NCBI RefSeq assembly: GCF_030158645.1
Contig: NZ_JAOASO010000168.1
Location: forward strand, 1-64,000
DNA length: 64,000 bases
Direction: 5' to 3'
Origin: Hydrogenophaga sp.
GTDB taxonomy: Bacteria > Pseudomonadota > Gammaproteobacteria > Burkholderiales > Burkholderiaceae_C
Shown here: positions 55,509 to 64,000 of the stretch, piece after piece
Numbering within the stretch: the first letter of the stretch is position 1
Layout of the letters: each line of letters starts with the position of its first letter
Made by a program: the position numbers and the translations under genes
Notes under the pieces: model-generated
What the model was told of the DNA's origin: nothing
Seen by the model: the letters and a program-made list of their open reading frames with translations, nothing else
The model's database searches: none

Positions 55509-56417
55509 ATGTCCAGCCAAGCATCTGCCACCGCCGCAAAAAAGCCGCAGGCCCTGTCGCTTCACATCGGCATCAACGAGGTGAGCGCCGCCCACTACGA
55601 GGGCTGGACCGGACCGCTGGCGGCCTGTGAATTCGATGCCCACGACATGGCCGCCCTGGCCACATCACAAGGCATGAAAAGCACCCTGCTGATCACCAAA
55701 AAAGCCACGCGCTCCAACCTGCTGGCGGCGCTGCGCAAAGCGGCCAAATCACTTTCCACCGGTGACTTTTTCTTCATGAGTTTTTCCGGGCATGGTGGCC
55801 AGGTGCCGGACGTGAGCGGTGAAGAAAAAGACGACAAGCAGGACGAAACCTGGTGCCTGTTCGACGGCCAGCTGATCGACGACGAGCTCTACTACGAGCT
55901 CAGCCTGTTCAAGGCCGGTGTGCGCATCTTCGTGGTCTCGGACAGTTGCCACAGCGGTACGGTGGTGCGCGCCGGGCGGCCACAGCCCGGCACACCGGCG
56001 CAGCGCCCGCGCATCATGCCGCTGGCCGTGGGCATGCGGGTCTACGCGGCGCACAAGGCCTTCTACGACCAGCTCCAGAACGACGTGGCCAGGCACGCCG
56101 GTGGGCGCGTGACCGATCCCGACACCGCGCTGGCCAATGTCACCGTGAGCAACCGCCTCACCGGCATCGTCAAGGCATTCAAGCCCGCGCTCATCCTCAT
56201 CTCGGGGTGTCAGGACAACCAGTTCTCCATGGACGGCGACCACAACGGGGCCTTCACCGAACAACTGCTGCGCGTGTGGAACAACGGCGCCTTCACCGGC
56301 AGCTACGCGCGCATGCACGCGCTGATCCGCGCCGGCCTGCCACCCACGCAGTCGCCCAACCTGTTCACGCTCGGGCCAGCGGCCACGTTTTTGAAGCAGA
56401 CGCCGTTCAGCGTCTGA
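55509..56417 (+). CDS. Caspase-family (C14, metacaspase-like) protease
   Basis: The 302-residue cytosolic protein is a C14-type cysteine protease with the catalytic pair His95 in [14 protein letters not shown] and Cys147 in [13 protein letters not shown]. The fold opening [18 protein letters not shown] and the paired [18 protein letters not shown] segment match bacterial metacaspases. No signal peptide or adaptor domain is visible. Bacterial caspase-like proteases usually cut after basic residues, and many are parts of conflict or death systems. ATG 55509 has GGGGGAG upstream; the track's start at 55425 is in the promoter. First gene of a four-gene operon. Confidence 0.88.
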
Positions 56418-56475: not shown

Positions 56476-57423
56476 ATGCTCGGCATCCAGAACCACCGTC
56501 TCACCGGCCCCGATGTGAGCTTTCGCGCCACGCCCAACGTCGGCGGCGTCCTGCGACCGCAGTTCGTGGTCTTGCACTACACCGCCGGGCGCACGCTGGA
56601 GAGTTCGGTGGAGTCGCTCTGCACGAAGAAGCCCCAGGGCAACGCGTCGGCGCACATCGTGCTCGGCCGCGACGGACGCATCGTGCAGCTCGCGCCGTTC
56701 AACGCCGTGACCTGGCACGCCGGCGTGAGCCAGTGGAACGGCGTCGATGGCCTGAACCACCACGCCATCGGGATCGAGATGGACAACGCCGGCCTGCTGC
56801 ACCGCGAAGGAGAACGTTGCGTGTCGTGGTTCGGCAAGACCTACCCCGACAACGAGGTGGTGATGGCCGAACACCGGCACGGTGGCGGCGTGCGGCCCTG
56901 GCACCACTTCACCGAGGTGCAGATCGAGCGCGCGTTGCAGCTGTGCGAGGTGCTGGTGGCGCATTACGGCCTGAAGGACGTGCTGGGACACGAAGACATC
57001 GCACGCGGACGCAAGGTGGACCCCGGGCCGGCGTTCCCGCTGGCCGCTGTGCGCGCCCGCGCATTGGGTCGCGGTGCCGATGTGGCGGTGCGTCTGGTGG
57101 TCAACGCCGCCAGCCTGAACATCCGCAGCGGCCCGGCGGCCGAGTTTCCCAAAGTGGCGCCCGCACTCAAGCGCGGCGCCGAGCTGGTGCTGCTCGAACC
57201 ACAAGACCGCTGGAGCCGCGTGGCGGTGGTGGGCGCCACCGATCTGGAGGGCTGGGTCTGCAACGACTTCGTGACGCGCCAGGCGTCCACACGCTCCAGC
57301 GGCGGGGTGCTTTCGCGCTCGCAGCGCGCCGTGCCGGTGGCGGCAAAAACACCGGCCAAGGCACCCGCCCGAAAGCGCGCAGCGCCAGCCAAAGAAACCA
57401 CGACCACCCGCGCGCGGCGTTGA
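56476..57423 (+). CDS. N-acetylmuramoyl-L-alanine amidase (Amidase_2) with SH3b and basic tail
   Basis: The 315-residue protein has an Amidase_2 (AmpD/PGRP-type) domain with zinc ligands His34 (FVVLHYTAG), His172 (LGHEDIARG) and Asp182 (KVDPGPAF), followed by an SH3b domain at ~210-275 (NAASLNIRSGPAAEFPKVAPALKRGAE) and a basic Ala/Lys/Arg tail. It would cut the amide between MurNAc and the stem peptide. No signal peptide is seen, so access to peptidoglycan would need lysis or a partner. It lies 58 bp after the caspase gene and 36 bp before the CHAT gene. GGGAGGG precedes ATG 56476. Confidence 0.88.
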   Translation: MLGIQNHRLTGPDVSFRATPNVGGVLRPQFVVLHYTAGRTLESSVESLCTKKPQGNASAHIVLGRDGRIVQLAPFNAVTWHAGVSQWNGVDGLNHHAIGIEMDNAGLLHREGERCVSWFGKTYPDNEVVMAEHRHGGGVRPWHHFTEVQIERALQLCEVLVAHYGLKDVLGHEDIARGRKVDPGPAFPLAAVRARALGRGADVAVRLVVNAASLNIRSGPAAEFPKVAPALKRGAELVLLEPQDRWSRVAVVGATDLEGWVCNDFVTRQASTRSSGGVLSRSQRAVPVAAKTPAKAPARKRAAPAKETTTTRARR

Positions 57424-57459: not shown

Positions 57460-60400
57460 ATGACCACCGCGCCCACGCCCATCACCTTCATCGTTCGCGG
57501 CCAGTCGCAAGCGACGCCCGCGGCCACACGCGGCCGCGGGTCCGGTTCTACGGCAGGCTTCGGCGGACGGGGCCAGACCCTGCAGCGTGTGCAGGTGGGC
57601 GCCACCCGTGGCAGCAGCGATGCGGTGCGGCTCACCGCGCGCCCTGGTCTCGACGCGGTGGTGCTTCACATCACCAACGGTCCCTCGCTCATGCTGCACC
57701 CCGAGACCGCGCGCGACCTGATGCTGGCGCAGTCGAACTCGCCGCGCAGCCGTGCAGGCGCCGCCGCCACCACGGACATCAACGTGCCGGCGCAACTGGG
57801 CTGGCCAGGTCTGGAGCAGGCGGGTGCGTCGCGCGGCACCTCGCGGGGGCGGCTGGGGGATGTGCTGCTGTCGGCCGTCGAAGTGGTCACGGGTCTGCTG
57901 CTGGAGCCGGTCTCGCGCATCACGGCCGCGAAGATCGCCGCGCGGGTGGACAACCAGGTCGAGGCGGGCTTGTACCCGCTGTCGGCGCAAAGCTTTGCCA
58001 CGGTGCTCAAGGGCAACGGCCAGAGGATCCCCCGTCTGCCTGCGCCCACACCGGCCGATGCACCGTTGCTCGTGCTGCTGCACGGCACTTTCTCCGAGAC
58101 ACACGGCACCTTCGGCAAGCTGTGGCAGCACCACCCCAACAAGGTGCGCGAGCTGTTCACGCGTTTCGGGAACCGGGTCTATGGCTTCGACCATCCCACG
58201 CTCACGGCCAGCCCGATCGACAACGCGCTGCTGCTCGCGCGCTCGCTGCCCCGAGGCGCTCGACTGCACTTGCTCACCCATTCGCGCGGCGGCTTGGTGG
58301 CCGAGGTGCTGGCGCGGGTGTGTGCCCGGCCCGAGCTGGATGAAAAGTCGCTCACCCCGTTCAAGACACCCGAGCACCGCAACCAGCTCAAAGCGCTGCG
58401 CGAACTGGCCGCCGAACTCCAGGGGCGGGACATCAAGGTGGAGCGTGTGGTGCGTGTGGCCTGCCCGGCACGCGGCACCCTGCTGGCTTCCAAGCGGCTG
58501 GACGCCTATGTGTCGGTGCTCAAATGGTCGCTGGAGTTGGCCGCGATTCCGGTGGCGCCCACGCTGATCGACTTCATCGGGGAAGTGGCCAGCCAGCGCA
58601 CCGACCCCGCCTTGATGCCGGGTCTGGAATGCATGATGCCGCAGAGCCCGCTGGTGCAGTGGCTGCACGCCGTCGAGGGGGCGGACGCAGGGCCGCTGCC
58701 GGGGCAGCTGCGGGTGGTGGCGGGCGACATCCAGGGCGACTCCATCACCTCGTGGGTCAAGACCCTGCTGGCCGACGCCTTTTACTGGACCGACAACGAC
58801 CTGGTGGTGCAGACCCGGTCCATGTACGGCGGCACGCCGCGTGCACCCAGCGGCGGCCACGCGGCGGCCACCTTCGTGCTGGAGCGTGGCGGCAAAGTCT
58901 CCCACTTCAGCTACTTCAGCGAACCGCGCTCGACTGACGCCATCTGCAATGCGCTGGTGCAGGACACGCCTGCGGGCTTCCGGCCCATCGGACCGATGTC
59001 GTGGGCGGGCAGTTCCAGCGACGGCCTGCGCGGCATGCCCCGTGCGGGCAGCGCGGCATCCGCGTCCGAGCGCCCCGCCGTGATCCTGTTGCCCGGGATC
59101 CTCGGCAGCCACTTGGCGGTGGACGGCAAACGCATCTGGCTGAGCGCGCGCATCCTCGGTGGCCTGGGGCGTCTGGCCTATCCGGACAGCAGCGGAAAGG
59201 TGCTGCCCGACGGGGCCATCGGCAGCGTCTACGACGACCTCGCCGCCTTCCTGTCGACCACGCACGAGGTGATCGAGTTTTCATTCGACTGGCGCCGCCC
59301 GATCGAGGAAGAAGGCGCCCGCCTGGCCGATGTGATGGACCAGGCCCTGAGTGCGCGCGCCACCAGTGGCCAGCCGGTGCGGCTGCTGGCCCATTCCATG
59401 GGTGGCGTGGTCGCGCGCACCGTGCAACTGGAGCGCCCCGATGTGTGGCAGCGTTGGCTGGAACGTCCGGGCTCACGCCTGCTGATGCTGGGCACGCCCA
59501 ACGGCGGCTCGTTCGCGCCCATGCAGGTGCTCTCGGGCGACGACAGCATGGGCAATGCACTCGCCGCCTTCGGCCTGCCGTTCCAGGACCACAAGGCGCG
59601 CCGCCTCATGGCGGCCATGCCCGGCTTCATCCAGCTGCAGGCCGGCTTGCTGGACCCCTCGCTGGGCCTGTCACACAGCGAGCGGTGGCAGACCCTGGCC
59701 GACCAGGACATGAAAACACTGGAGGAGGCCAACGTCTGGCACGACCCGATCAGCCAGCAAACCGTGTACCGCTGGGGCGTTCCCCCGCAAGAGGTGCTGG
59801 ACCGTGCCGTGGCCTTGCGCCGCCGGCTCGACCAGCAGCGCGACGCGGCACTGCCGGGCTTCAGCGACCGGCTGTTGATGGTGGTGGGCCACGCACGCTT
59901 CACACCGGCGGGCTTCGAGATGGACGGGCGCGAGGGCCTGGTCTACCTGGACCAGCCCGATGGCGGCGATGGCCGCGTCACGCTCGACAACGCCTTGCTG
60001 CCCGGCGTGCGCACCTGGAAGGTGGACTGCGAACACGGCGGCCTGCCCGATGCGGCTTCGGCCTTTGCCGGCTACCTTGATCTGCTGCAGCACGGCGACA
60101 CGCAACGCCTGCCGGTGATGGCACAGACACCCGTGGCACGCAGCGGCAGCACCCTCACCGCCCTGGTGCGCAGCCGGCCGTCGCGCCAGCGCAGCGCGGT
60201 CGTGCAGCCGCCCACCGGCCTGGGCGAACTGCTGGCGCAAGTGGCAGACGCCCCCATCCGCACCGAAGCACCGCAGGGCGCACTGCGCATCAGCGTGCAC
60301 AACGCCAACCTCAAGTTCATCAGCTCGCCCTTGCTGGTGGGTCACTACTTTGCGTCCACCCTGAGCGGCACCGAAGCGGTGGTTGACCGGTTCATCGGGG

Positions 60401-63045
60401 GCGCCATGTCGGCATCGCTCACGGCGGGCCTGTACCCGGAAGCGCCGGGCACGCACCAGATCTTCGTCAACAACCGGCAGGACCCGGACAGCCCGCTGGC
60501 CCTGCCCCGCCCACCCCATGTGGTGGTGGCGGGCCTGGGTGCAGAAGGCAAGCTCAAGAGCGCGGCCATCACCCACACCGTGCGTCAGGCCACGCTGGCC
60601 TGGGCGCAGCGCGTGGCCGAAGCGCCGGGCGGCGGCGCCGCCCAGTTCGAACTGGCGGCCACACTGATTGGCAGCGGGGGCAGCGGCATCAGCGTGAGCA
60701 CCTCGGCGCAAGCGGTGGCGCAAGGCGTGCGCGAGGCCAACGAAAAACTCCTTGCCGGCCAGTGGCCGGTGGTGAGCCACCTGCGCCTGGTGGAGCTCTA
60801 CCTTGACCGGGCCACCGACGCCTGGGGAGCGCTGACCTTGCTGTGCGCCGCCTCGCCCGACCACTTTGTGCTCTCCCCGTGCGTCATCTCGGGCGTGGGC
60901 GCACTGCGCAAGACGCTGGACAACGGCTACCGCGGCACCGCTTACGACTTCATCAGCGCCGTGACCCAGCTGGATGAGACCGGCGAGCCGAGCATCGTCT
61001 ACACGCTGGACACCCAGCGGGCCCGCGCCGAGGTGCGTGCGCAGGCCACGCAGGGGAGGCTGGTGGGCGAGTTGGTGCGCCGTGCATCGAACGACGCCAA
61101 CCGCGACCGGGAGATCGGACGCACGCTGTTCCAGTTGCTGGTCCCGGTGGAGATGGAGTCCAGCCTGAGCGGCACCAGCGAACTGCTGCTGGAGGTGGAC
61201 GACGGCACCGCCGCCATTCCGTGGGAACTGCTGGATGCGCCGGACGATGGCCGGGGCGGCCCCGAGGCGCCCTGGGCCATCCGCAACAAGTTGCTGCGCC
61301 GCCTGCGCACGGTGGCCTTTCGCTCCCAGGTGAGCGACGCGCGCCTGGAAGACTGCGTGCTGGTGATCGGCGAGCCGCTCTGCGACCCGGCGTTGTACCC
61401 GCCGCTGCCGGCGGCGCGTGCCGAGGCTGAGGCGGTGGTGGAGGCCCTCAGCGGGCAGCTCGGACTGGACGCCTCCCGCGTGCATGCGCTGATCGCGCTT
61501 GACGACGGCCTGGGGCCCGATGCGGCCGCCGTGACCACCGCGCTGCTGCAGCGGCGCTACCGGATCGTGCACATTGCCGGCCATGGTGAGCCCGAACTGG
61601 AGCGTCCCGGCAAGCCTCCACTGATGCGCGGTGTGGTGCTGAGCGACAACACATTCCTCGGGCCCCGCGAGGTGCAGGCCATGCGGGTGGTGCCCGAACT
61701 GGTGTTTCTCAACTGCTGCCATCTGGCCGCCGATCCCGACAAACTGCTCAAAGGGGGCTACGACCGTGCGCAGTTTGCCGCGGGCGTGGCCAAGCAGTTG
61801 ATCCGCATCGGCGTGCGCTGCGTGGTGGCGGCGGGCTGGGCGGTGGAGGACGACGCGGCCAATGTGTTTGCCACGGAGTTTTACCGCGCCTTGCTCTCGG
61901 GCCAGCGTTTCATGGACGCGGTGCAGGCCGCCCGCGTGGCCGCCTACAACGCCAGCCCGCAGGGCAACACCTGGGCCGCTTACCAATGCTACGGGGACCC
62001 CGACTGGGTGTGGCAACGCAACGAGGCCGACACGCGCCGCACACCCCCACCGCTGTCCAAGCTGTACGCCGGCATCGCCTCGCCGGTGGCGCTCGCGCTC
62101 GCCCTGGAAACCCTCGCGGTGCAAAGCACCACCCAGGGCGTGGCGCCCGAACCCCAACGCGAAAAAATCCGCTACCTGGAAGCCCGCTTCGACAACGAAT
62201 GGGGCGGCATGGGCGCGGTGGCCGAAGCCTTTGGTGTGGCCTGGGCGGCGGCCCGCGACATCGAGCGCGCGCTGCACTGGTACCGCCGCGCGGTGGCGGC
62301 CAACGACGGCAGCGCCTCGGTGAAGGCCAATGAACAACTGGCGAATCTGGGTGCGCGCCAGGCCTGGGTCAGGGTGGAGGCAGCGGGGCGCAACGGGGCC
62401 AAGCCCGCCGCGCTCAAGGCGCTGGTGGACCAAGGCCGGACCGACATCCACCACGCCATTGCCATCCTCGACGCGCTGGTGACGCTCTCGCCCACCGTCG
62501 AGCGGGAGAGCCTGCTGGGCTCGACGTGGAAGCGCATGGCCCGACTCGAAGGCCGGGCGGGGCCCCCCGCTGCTGCAGCCAAGGCACACGCTGTGGATCA
62601 CATGGCCGAGCATTACCGGCGCGCCGAGGCCCTGGCCCTGCAGAGCGGGCTGGCCGATCTGTTTTACCCCGCGCTCAACCTGGTGGCCGCCGACTTGTTG
62701 GCACACGGGCCTGACCGCCATCGGTCCGGGGGCGCCGAGCGCAGGCAGCGTGTGCGCCAGGGCCTGGAGCGCAAGTTGCGCGAGGACCCGGACTTCTGGA
62801 GCGTGGTGGGACTGCCCGAACTCAGCGTGTACGAGTCCCTGGCCGACCACACACTGGCCACGCATCTGCCGACCATCCTCGGCAGCTTCGAAGACCTGCA
62901 CCAACGCGCCGGCACCGGCTGGATGTGGGCCTCGGTGGCCGACCAGCTCGGCTTCGTGCTGGAGCACCTCGATGGTGTCACCAGCGCCGACCGGTCCGCG
63001 GCCAACGAATTGTTGGATGTGCTCAACCGCTACGCCGCCGAATGA
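57460..63045 (+). CDS. Giant fusion: two lipase-like alpha/beta-hydrolase domains plus CHAT protease
   Basis: The 1,861-residue protein combines three enzyme-like modules. At ~198-400 is an alpha/beta-hydrolase with LLVLLHGTFSE and nucleophile elbow Ser274 in LLTHSRGGLVAEV. At ~540-870 is an LCAT/PGAP1-like lipase with VILLPGILGSHLA, SFDWRRP and Ser646 in LLAHSMGGVVA. At ~960-1120 is a segment seen in other large CHAT proteins (SSPLLVGHYFASTLSG). The CHAT domain at ~1240-1520 has His1375 in VHIAGHGE and Cys1419/1420 in FLNCCHLA. The C-terminus is TPR-like helical. No signal peptide or transmembrane helix. It overlaps the TIR gene by 4 bp. I know no named family for the full architecture. Confidence 0.85.
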   Translation: MTTAPTPITFIVRGQSQATPAATRGRGSGSTAGFGGRGQTLQRVQVGATRGSSDAVRLTARPGLDAVVLHITNGPSLMLHPETARDLMLAQSNSPRSRAGAAATTDINVPAQLGWPGLEQAGASRGTSRGRLGDVLLSAVEVVTGLLLEPVSRITAAKIAARVDNQVEAGLYPLSAQSFATVLKGNGQRIPRLPAPTPADAPLLVLLHGTFSETHGTFGKLWQHHPNKVRELFTRFGNRVYGFDHPTLTASPIDNALLLARSLPRGARLHLLTHSRGGLVAEVLARVCARPELDEKSLTPFKTPEHRNQLKALRELAAELQGRDIKVERVVRVACPARGTLLASKRLDAYVSVLKWSLELAAIPVAPTLIDFIGEVASQRTDPALMPGLECMMPQSPLVQWLHAVEGADAGPLPGQLRVVAGDIQGDSITSWVKTLLADAFYWTDNDLVVQTRSMYGGTPRAPSGGHAAATFVLERGGKVSHFSYFSEPRSTDAICNALVQDTPAGFRPIGPMSWAGSSSDGLRGMPRAGSAASASERPAVILLPGILGSHLAVDGKRIWLSARILGGLGRLAYPDSSGKVLPDGAIGSVYDDLAAFLSTTHEVIEFSFDWRRPIEEEGARLADVMDQALSARATSGQPVRLLAHSMGGVVARTVQLERPDVWQRWLERPGSRLLMLGTPNGGSFAPMQVLSGDDSMGNALAAFGLPFQDHKARRLMAAMPGFIQLQAGLLDPSLGLSHSERWQTLADQDMKTLEEANVWHDPISQQTVYRWGVPPQEVLDRAVALRRRLDQQRDAALPGFSDRLLMVVGHARFTPAGFEMDGREGLVYLDQPDGGDGRVTLDNALLPGVRTWKVDCEHGGLPDAASAFAGYLDLLQHGDTQRLPVMAQTPVARSGSTLTALVRSRPSRQRSAVVQPPTGLGELLAQVADAPIRTEAPQGALRISVHNANLKFISSPLLVGHYFASTLSGTEAVVDRFIGGAMSASLTAGLYPEAPGTHQIFVNNRQDPDSPLALPRPPHVVVAGLGAEGKLKSAAITHTVRQATLAWAQRVAEAPGGGAAQFELAATLIGSGGSGISVSTSAQAVAQGVREANEKLLAGQWPVVSHLRLVELYLDRATDAWGALTLLCAASPDHFVLSPCVISGVGALRKTLDNGYRGTAYDFISAVTQLDETGEPSIVYTLDTQRARAEVRAQATQGRLVGELVRRASNDANRDREIGRTLFQLLVPVEMESSLSGTSELLLEVDDGTAAIPWELLDAPDDGRGGPEAPWAIRNKLLRRLRTVAFRSQVSDARLEDCVLVIGEPLCDPALYPPLPAARAEAEAVVEALSGQLGLDASRVHALIALDDGLGPDAAAVTTALLQRRYRIVHIAGHGEPELERPGKPPLMRGVVLSDNTFLGPREVQAMRVVPELVFLNCCHLAADPDKLLKGGYDRAQFAAGVAKQLIRIGVRCVVAAGWAVEDDAANVFATEFYRALLSGQRFMDAVQAARVAAYNASPQGNTWAAYQCYGDPDWVWQRNEADTRRTPPPLSKLYAGIASPVALALALETLAVQSTTQGVAPEPQREKIRYLEARFDNEWGGMGAVAEAFGVAWAAARDIERALHWYRRAVAANDGSASVKANEQLANLGARQAWVRVEAAGRNGAKPAALKALVDQGRTDIHHAIAILDALVTLSPTVERESLLGSTWKRMARLEGRAGPPAAAAKAHAVDHMAEHYRRAEALALQSGLADLFYPALNLVAADLLAHGPDRHRSGGAERRQRVRQGLERKLREDPDFWSVVGLPELSVYESLADHTLATHLPTILGSFEDLHQRAGTGWMWASVADQLGFVLEHLDGVTSADRSAANELLDVLNRYAAE

Positions 63046-64000
63046 ACCGCATCTTCATCAGCTACCGGGCGTCCGACGGCAAAAAGGACGCCGACCGTCT
63101 CTGCGCCGACCTCAGCCGGCTCTACGGTGCCGACCAGGTGTTCTTCGACAAGCAGGACCTCAGGGGCGGACATTCATGGCGCAGCGCCATCATGGCCGCG
63201 CTCGGCACGAAACCGGTGGTGCTGCTGCTGGTCACACCCGAGCTGCTGGGCATGGCACACCCCGAAGGCGGTCGGCGCATCGACCGCGATGACGACCCCA
63301 TCCGCGGCGAGGTGCTGACCGCCCAGGCCCACGGTGCCACCATCGTTCCGCTGCTCACCGAAGGCGTTTCGATGCCGGCGACCGGCGACATTCCGCCGCC
63401 ACTGCGGTTTTTGAAGGAAGCGCATGCGCTCAAGCTGCGCACCGAAGACTGGGCCGACGACCTGGCCAAGATCGTGGCCGATCTGGCCACGCACGGCATC
63501 CAGCCACTGGTGCGGCGCGACCCCGAGCGCCCGGAAAAGCGCACCTGGTTGCAGCGCATGCAGCGCGGCTTCATGTGGATCGGCGGCATCTTCGTCGGGC
63601 TCATCGTCATCGGTCTGCTGGTCCCCGAGGATGACGTGTCCGTCCCACCCCCACCGCCTCCGTCCGCGGCAGCCACACCCGCGCCGGCGCCGGTTCACGC
63701 CGCGCGCGATGTCTCCGGCCTGTGGTGGTCCATCGACGAAGACAACCGACGCTTGCGGGTGCAGTTCACCGTGAACAACGGTGCGATCCAGCTGCAGACC
63801 GACGCATTTCCCATCGCCTGGTATCCGCGCTGGCAGGCCTATGCCCAGGGTGTTCGCGAGATGGGACTGATCGTCAACGAGGTGCGCTACGTGGGCCAGG
63901 GTGCGCTCACCGATGTGATGGGCACCCCGCGCATCGAAATGCCGGTGCAAGCCGTCACCGCCGACGGCCGTGGCCCGCTGGACACCGGCAGCCTGGTGCT
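63042..64000 (+). CDS. TIR-domain protein with one transmembrane segment (3' end cut by window)
   Basis: The visible 319 residues, absent from the ORF track because no stop is reached, start at an ATG overlapping the CHAT stop (ATGA). Residues 1-~145 are a TIR domain: NRIFISYRASDGKKDADRL, VFFDKQDLRGGHSWRSAI, VVLLLVTPELL, and a conserved acidic 'PIRGEVLTAQAHGATIVPLL' helix where NADase TIRs hold the catalytic Glu. A single hydrophobic helix follows at ~182-198 (GGIFVGLIVIGLLVP), then a Pro-rich linker and the start of a beta-rich domain of unknown fold (SGLWWSIDEDNRRLRVQFTV). NAD+ hydrolysis or signalling-nucleotide synthesis is possible. The C-terminal part is unseen. Confidence 0.85.
   Translation, partial: MNRIFISYRASDGKKDADRLCADLSRLYGADQVFFDKQDLRGGHSWRSAIMAALGTKPVVLLLVTPELLGMAHPEGGRRIDRDDDPIRGEVLTAQAHGATIVPLLTEGVSMPATGDIPPPLRFLKEAHALKLRTEDWADDLAKIVADLATHGIQPLVRRDPERPEKRTWLQRMQRGFMWIGGIFVGLIVIGLLVPEDDVSVPPPPPPSAAATPAPAPVHAARDVSGLWWSIDEDNRRLRVQFTVNNGAIQLQTDAFPIAWYPRWQAYAQGVREMGLIVNEVRYVGQGALTDVMGTPRIEMPVQAVTADGRGPLDTGSLV

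Follow-up and report, generated by a model that had tools for sequence, protein, structure and literature searches.

A gene on the forward strand of a Hydrogenophaga sp. contig, at positions 57460 to 63045 of the 64,000-nucleotide stretch analysed here (the window), encodes a single chain in which two alpha/beta-hydrolases, a macro/M17_N-like domain, a CHAT protease and a TPR-S repeat follow one another. We read this large protein, at roughly even chances, as a soluble executioner with several enzyme domains that serves a bacterial cell-suicide immune system, in which a TIR-made signal would act on the CHAT protease and the protease in turn on the lipases. The frame begins with ATG, is free of internal stops and specifies 1,861 residues with no clear transmembrane segment by hydropathy. 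A sequence-only reading of the same DNA had proposed two lipase-like domains and an intact CHAT protease within one chain, and this is borne out by Pfam matches, judged against curated cut-offs, and by catalytic residues that are all conserved; it had passed over the macro/M17_N-like domain (about residues 940–1135) and the C-terminal TPR-S repeat, as well as other members of the gene run: an amidase, an astacin-type protease and the TIR proteins. The large protein supplies the sole CHAT match and the sole TPR-S match in the 3.7-Mb genome. Its domains were delimited with AlphaFold2 models of two overlapping halves, built with 52 and 54 relatives (mean pLDDT of 81 for residues 1–925 and 87.5 for residues 920–1861), which show an LPLA2/LCAT-like fold in the first half and CHAT, macro and TPR folds in the second.

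Hydrolase 1 (positions 57961 to 58965, forward strand; about residues 168–502) matches the DUF7379 alpha/beta-hydrolase family of Pfam (PF24096) at 106.5 bits against a cut-off of 33, with a triad of S275, D447 and H482. Its nucleophile had been given as Ser274; the stretch runs T273-H274-S275-R276-G277-G278, placing it at Ser275, and the numbering of Ser646, His1375 and the Cys1419-Cys1420 pair was correct. In the model the core of this domain has a pLDDT of ~90 and is confident around Ser275, and the loop bearing D447 lies below 50. Hydrolase 2 (59065 to 60099, forward strand; about residues 536–880; triad S646, D837 and H859) matches LCAT in Pfam at 29.9 bits against a cut-off of 21, which puts both regions first taken for lipases above the cut-offs of hydrolase profiles. 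Profile matches of hydrolase 2 in the PDB are LCAT and LPLA2, a Foldseek search with the first-half model returned lysosomal phospholipase A2 (LPLA2) at E 7e-8 with LCAT also matched, and the pLDDT of the domain is mostly 80–98. By profile, fold and triad, hydrolase 2 is LCAT/group XV phospholipase A2-like, and lipase activity is predicted for it.

Counted over those close-set sequences that cover each column (69–73), the catalytic residues are kept in hydrolase 1 (S275 in 69/69, D447 in 70/70, H482 in 70/70), in hydrolase 2 (S646 in 72/72, D837 and H859 each in 73/73) and in CHAT (H1375 and C1420 each in 71/71, and C1419 in 70/71). Since the catalytic columns are unchanged throughout the close set, the pattern is not due to chance. 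The same residues are unchanged in a separate set reaching down to ~31% identity, with the sole exception of one version (L057, 7135-12828) that carries Gly at both lipase serines (HGRGG and HGLGG) and has the Asp and His residues, the CHAT dyad and an adjacent caspase intact. Both lipase sites were thus lost together in one lineage, and the retention of CHAT and caspase there implies that lipase activity is dispensable in some versions.

The CHAT protease domain (PF12770; 61111 to 61998, forward strand; residues 1218–1513) was matched at 120 bits against a cut-off of 24 (E 1.7e-34). Its dyad is formed by H1375 and C1420, the latter standing, beside C1419, at the usual position of the CHAT cysteine ('NAC' here reading 'NCC'). 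A Foldseek search with the second-half model retrieved Csx29/TPR-CHAT, SAVED-CHAT, TPR superhelices, macro domains and leucyl aminopeptidases. The macro/M17_N-like domain (60277 to 60864, forward strand) was recognized by this search from a confidently modelled fold, the matches including macroH2A1.1 (TMt 0.70), TTHA0132 (TMt 0.77) and a leucyl aminopeptidase. No Pfam model matched this segment of the large protein, and a PDB profile search with the region gave no match where the fold search did. We nonetheless place the macro match before CHAT because Peptidase_M17_N of Pfam covers exactly that place in 9/16 relatives (best 9e-6) and the order of strands and helices fits. In macro proteins the macro fold binds ADP-ribose, and the modelled domain is a candidate receptor for an ADP-ribose-type signal. 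The chain ends in a TPR superhelix (62200 to 63042, forward strand) with pLDDT mostly above 90, within which TPR-S (PF20308) matches residues 1601–1743 at 39.6 bits against a cut-off of 27.6. That TPR-S binds an NAD-derived signal is a prediction of the literature, and the domain was reportedly named by Burroughs and Aravind in 2020 (J Bacteriol). The sequence-only reading had envisaged a self-contained switch; given the added macro-like and TPR-S regions and the TIR, nSTAND1 and caspase genes that recur beside the large gene, this is probably wrong, and the trigger is more likely a signal made elsewhere.

The caspase noticed earlier beside the large gene is genuine (Peptidase_C14, 77 bits against 21.4). 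It is a metacaspase-like, single-domain protein of 302 aa (55509 to 56417, forward strand) with no clear transmembrane segment by hydropathy, and its H95/C147 dyad is invariant in 33 relatives. It carries a DSCHSG motif near which acidic residues are invariant, a combination typical of Arg/Lys-specific metacaspases. A related caspase lies at most three genes away in 33/113 loci, on the same strand every time, and Peptidase_C14 accounts for 24/106 near same-strand genes from the other loci scanned, the chance expectation of such neighbours being ~0.06 across 29 loci. When the specific caspase is counted at 58% identity or above, it occurs in 19/201 family genomes, 18 of which also carry the large protein or, in one case (G022), its hydrolase-less form (Fisher p=2e-16; at genus level 15/16, p=3e-13), p-values that overstate the evidence because the genomes are related. 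As the caspase is unlinked to the large gene in several of the co-carrying genomes, the association is not merely positional; 13 of the 31 genomes with the large protein are without the specific caspase. At another locus (L048) the caspase adjoins a macro-CHAT protein that has no hydrolases, which suggests that it partners the CHAT half and not the lipases. The co-occurrence claim is limited to the close caspase family by outliers such as a more distant caspase of 45% identity (G031:C17:445864-446706, locus L147), whose genome lacks the complete large protein. Elsewhere, an unlinked member of the caspase family (G171:C18:30267-31593, locus L138) adjoins a same-strand TIR_2 protein away from the large gene, an arrangement reminiscent of a TIR-caspase pair.

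Within the window the same-strand run comprises the caspase, an amidase with an SH3 domain, the large gene and a TIR protein with a transmembrane segment. The amidase (56476 to 57423, forward strand; 315 aa) is an Amidase_2, AmpD-like N-acetylmuramoyl-L-alanine amidase with a bacterial SH3 domain by Pfam and no transmembrane segment by hydropathy, and it adjoins the large gene in Hydrogenophaga-type relatives only. TIR protein 1 (63042 to 64000 and on to 64094, past the window end; forward strand; 350 aa; Pfam TIR_2, 5.5e-10) has one transmembrane segment, and its start codon shares the sequence ATGA with the stop codon of the large gene. Past the window end the run goes on with an astacin-type metalloprotease bearing a PPC domain and lacking a hydrophobic signal segment (C168:64101-65138, or L002:1601-2638), a second TIR protein that likewise carries a transmembrane segment by hydropathy and, last, a protein of 642 aa that falls in no Pfam family and has a hydrophobic segment at its N-terminus (C168:65879-67807, or L002:3379-5307); a homologue of the latter lies beside the large gene at L118. 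TIR_2 makes up 10/106 near same-strand genes from other loci, and TIR genes occur within a few genes of the large gene in 4/29 genomes, with 0.09 expected and two of the four belonging to the same genus. Most loci have no adjacent TIR, and a Geobacter version (L125) bears a TIR domain at the C-terminus of the large protein itself. DPBB/SPOR (RlpA-like) neighbours, at 17/106 near genes, were discounted because they probably reflect synteny in Rubrivivax.

A scan of GTDB genomes yielded 77 loci, mostly from Hydrogenophaga, Rubrivivax and other Betaproteobacteria, with further members in Pseudomonas, Azotobacter, Bradyrhizobium, Geobacter and one myxobacterial MAG; the closest named relatives, from Hydrogenophaga, are 84–88% identical. 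The large protein is patchily distributed, and one plasmid copy adjoins restriction-modification genes. Its modules also appear in other arrangements. A Ruegeria pomeroyi megaplasmid (L009:5362-11259) encodes a direct fusion of a DUF7379 hydrolase to CHAT and, after it, a SIR2-AAA protein; Qingshengfaniella joins an LCAT-type lipase and a trypsin-type protease in one fusion; Rhizobium carries a hydrolase-less macro-CHAT-TPR-S protein near a TIR-nSTAND1-WD40 protein; and on a Streptomyces plasmid (L008:1787-7275) the gene for an NB-ARC protein with a C-terminal CHAT overlaps a gene for an LCAT-type lipase. At L090 a neighbour contains DUF4062, which has been reported as a TIR-like NADase (PMC13174449). 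A lipase, a protease and an NAD-consuming or STAND sensor thus recur as a combination. In the Streptomyces arrangement CHAT and the lipase are paired across two genes, and the sensor is of NLR type. At L130 (4698-8599) a further version of the large gene has as neighbours a TIR protein, a patatin-like phospholipase and a protein whose sequence begins HVFILMPFG.

Under the executioner reading, infection would lead a TIR or other NAD-consuming sensor to make an NAD/ADP-ribose-derived signal, whose binding to the macro-like and/or TPR-S part would switch on CHAT. CHAT would then process its partner caspase, the linker near residue 905 or both, and the freed lipases would attack membrane phospholipids, with further damage coming from two other products of the gene run, the amidase and the astacin-like protease; in this cascade either CHAT or the caspase could come first. 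A narrower version, in which a TIR-made ADP-ribose-type signal is read by the protein's own macro/M17_N-like domain and fires a CHAT that activates the caspase and excises two phospholipases, is put forward tentatively and is on balance doubtful. The executioner reading draws on the full conservation of the triads and the CHAT dyad in the close set, the match of hydrolase 2 to LPLA2/LCAT, and the match of the CHAT half to Csx29 and SAVED-CHAT, both signal-gated proteases. It also draws on the macro/M17_N-like domain and TPR-S, the C14 and TIR_2 neighbours, the Geobacter TIR fusion and the caspase co-occurrence, as well as on the modules' presence in other immune-type contexts, the patchy distribution and the plasmid copy near restriction-modification genes. 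It is weakened by the lack of an adjacent TIR at most loci and by the genomes with no caspase, by a macro-like domain that in the window matches no Pfam model, by defence models that stay below their cut-offs, and by the L057 version with its missing lipase serines.

The lipase and protease halves are joined, between hydrolase 2 and the CHAT half, by a hypervariable, gappy linker (60115 to 60279, forward strand; residues 886–940, delimited by column entropies). Within it R894 is present in all 70 sequences covering the column, and an SRPSR motif (S905-R906-P907-S908-R909) is strongly kept (R906 in 65/72, P907 in 70/72, R909 in 63/72). Judged from these columns, SRPSR is a candidate cleavage site. 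Modelled pLDDT, however, averages 84 at residues 901–910, against 49 before and 60 after, and a distant clade has YDAGPP in its place together with a separate Arg-rich stretch; being clade-specific and modelled as ordered, the segment could equally serve for docking. These properties bear on an unlikely alternative in which the caspase is the upstream initiator that cuts the Arg-rich linker and frees the lipases, CHAT only trimming or amplifying. The DSCHSG motif and acidic residues of the caspase, the arginines of SRPSR and the other Arg-rich stretches of the distant clade speak for such an order, and a precedent exists in Canu, where a caspase activates the effector by cleaving it at conserved sites within disordered insertions (PMC12799240). 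SRPSR is nevertheless kept at loci with no adjacent caspase, the distant clade with YDAGPP pairs with the same caspase family, and the caspase also pairs with the hydrolase-less macro-CHAT of L048. As a plain caspase site SRPSR is weakened by the first two of these observations and by its modelled order. Split genes at L120 and L123 were likewise rejected as natural domain boundaries, as their pieces do not share a reading frame and seem to result from frameshifts or from assembly.

The modelled order of the SRPSR segment, as expected of a docked peptide, would also suit a scheme that dispenses with proteolytic release: the signal would activate the whole protein allosterically, CHAT would shred cell proteins, and the lipases would act or scaffold unreleased. 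In plant EDS1 the triad of the lipase-like domain is dispensable, and L057 likewise keeps both hydrolase folds after losing their serines. Killing through broad proteolysis has a parallel in type IV Thoeris (PMC12847820). We hold this scheme to be quite improbable, since a hypervariable linker of ~50 residues between the lipase and protease halves, and the existence of hydrolase-less versions, fit separable parts. That the large protein serves instead in the stress response or envelope remodelling of environmental proteobacteria, its caspase and TIR neighbours being accidental, would suit the mostly chromosomal loci, which lack a clear defence island and in some cases have housekeeping neighbours, but is very improbable in view of a caspase and TIR enrichment far above chance, the TIR fusion and modules shared with NB-ARC and nSTAND1 proteins.

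Among known systems, the fold of the CHAT half is closest to the TPR-CHAT protein Csx29 of Craspase (PMC9729208, PMC10028731), in which CHAT is gated (PMC9729208). Both combine CHAT with a TPR region; however, the TPR precedes CHAT in Csx29 and follows it in the large protein, which adds lipases and a macro-like domain and has caspase and TIR partners in place of Cas7-11. No Cas-type genes were seen beside the locus. In the SAVED-CHAT system of type III CRISPR, a protease cascade leads to a caspase. SAVED-CHAT (structure 8tl0) thus resembles the present system in its caspase partner and in a CHAT that is probably gated by a nucleotide signal, but the large protein has no SAVED domain: the Pfam scan found none, and the PADLOC match is limited to CHAT residues 1437–1508.

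Type IV Thoeris, in which TIR-made N7-cADPR activates a caspase-like protease according to the summary of Rousset et al. 2025 in PMC12847820, shares the caspase partner and an operon that holds both TIR and clan-CD protease genes, and here the caspase and TIR genes flank the large gene on one strand, as in a type IV operon. It differs in that the protease core of the present system is a CHAT protein of 1,861 aa, which also contains two lipases, TPR-S and a macro-like domain, and in that a second, separate caspase is present. Type II Thoeris, whose TIR-made His-ADPR activates a TM-macro effector as relayed in PMC12847820, is alike in its TIR neighbours and in a macro-type domain as candidate receptor, whereas the large protein has no clear transmembrane segment, its M17_N-type macro-like domain is fused to CHAT, and lipases replace the membrane-spanning effector. 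No Thoeris, CBASS or CHAT defence model scored above its own cut-off (best Thoeris model ThcB4, 26.8 against 220 bits; PADLOC ThsB, 14.3 bits), in libraries that may be without type IV models. Membership in SAVED-CHAT or Thoeris was accordingly set aside, the defining models falling short.

Caspases paired with neighbouring alpha/beta-hydrolases are already known from other conflict systems, and in one subsystem of the MoxR-vWA and GTPase-centred systems the caspase always has such a partner gene (PMC7159879); there, hydrolase and caspase are separate and surround MoxR/vWA or GTPase cores, whereas here the hydrolases and CHAT form one chain. In Canu and similar pairs of nuclease and protease (PMC12799240) the effector is likewise activated by a protease that cuts conserved sites, but that effector is a nuclease and its cleavage has been demonstrated, whereas in the large protein the effectors would be lipases and their cleavage is only proposed. 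None of the papers searched describes the architecture of the large protein, and we rate its system as a TIR/caspase/CHAT conflict system in a new form.

Because the catalytic residues are known and do not vary within the close set, point mutants would allow an immediate test of the model. If it is correct, lipases would become the cargo of a signal-gated CHAT protease, and CHAT and caspase would be tied into a near-obligate pair outside CRISPR. One bacterial system would then unite TIR signalling with a macro-type receptor, with proteases and with lipase-fold domains, a combination that recalls plant TIR-EDS1 signalling; on the narrower version, the whole would constitute a previously undescribed form of bacterial cell death, driven by two proteases and executed by lipases.
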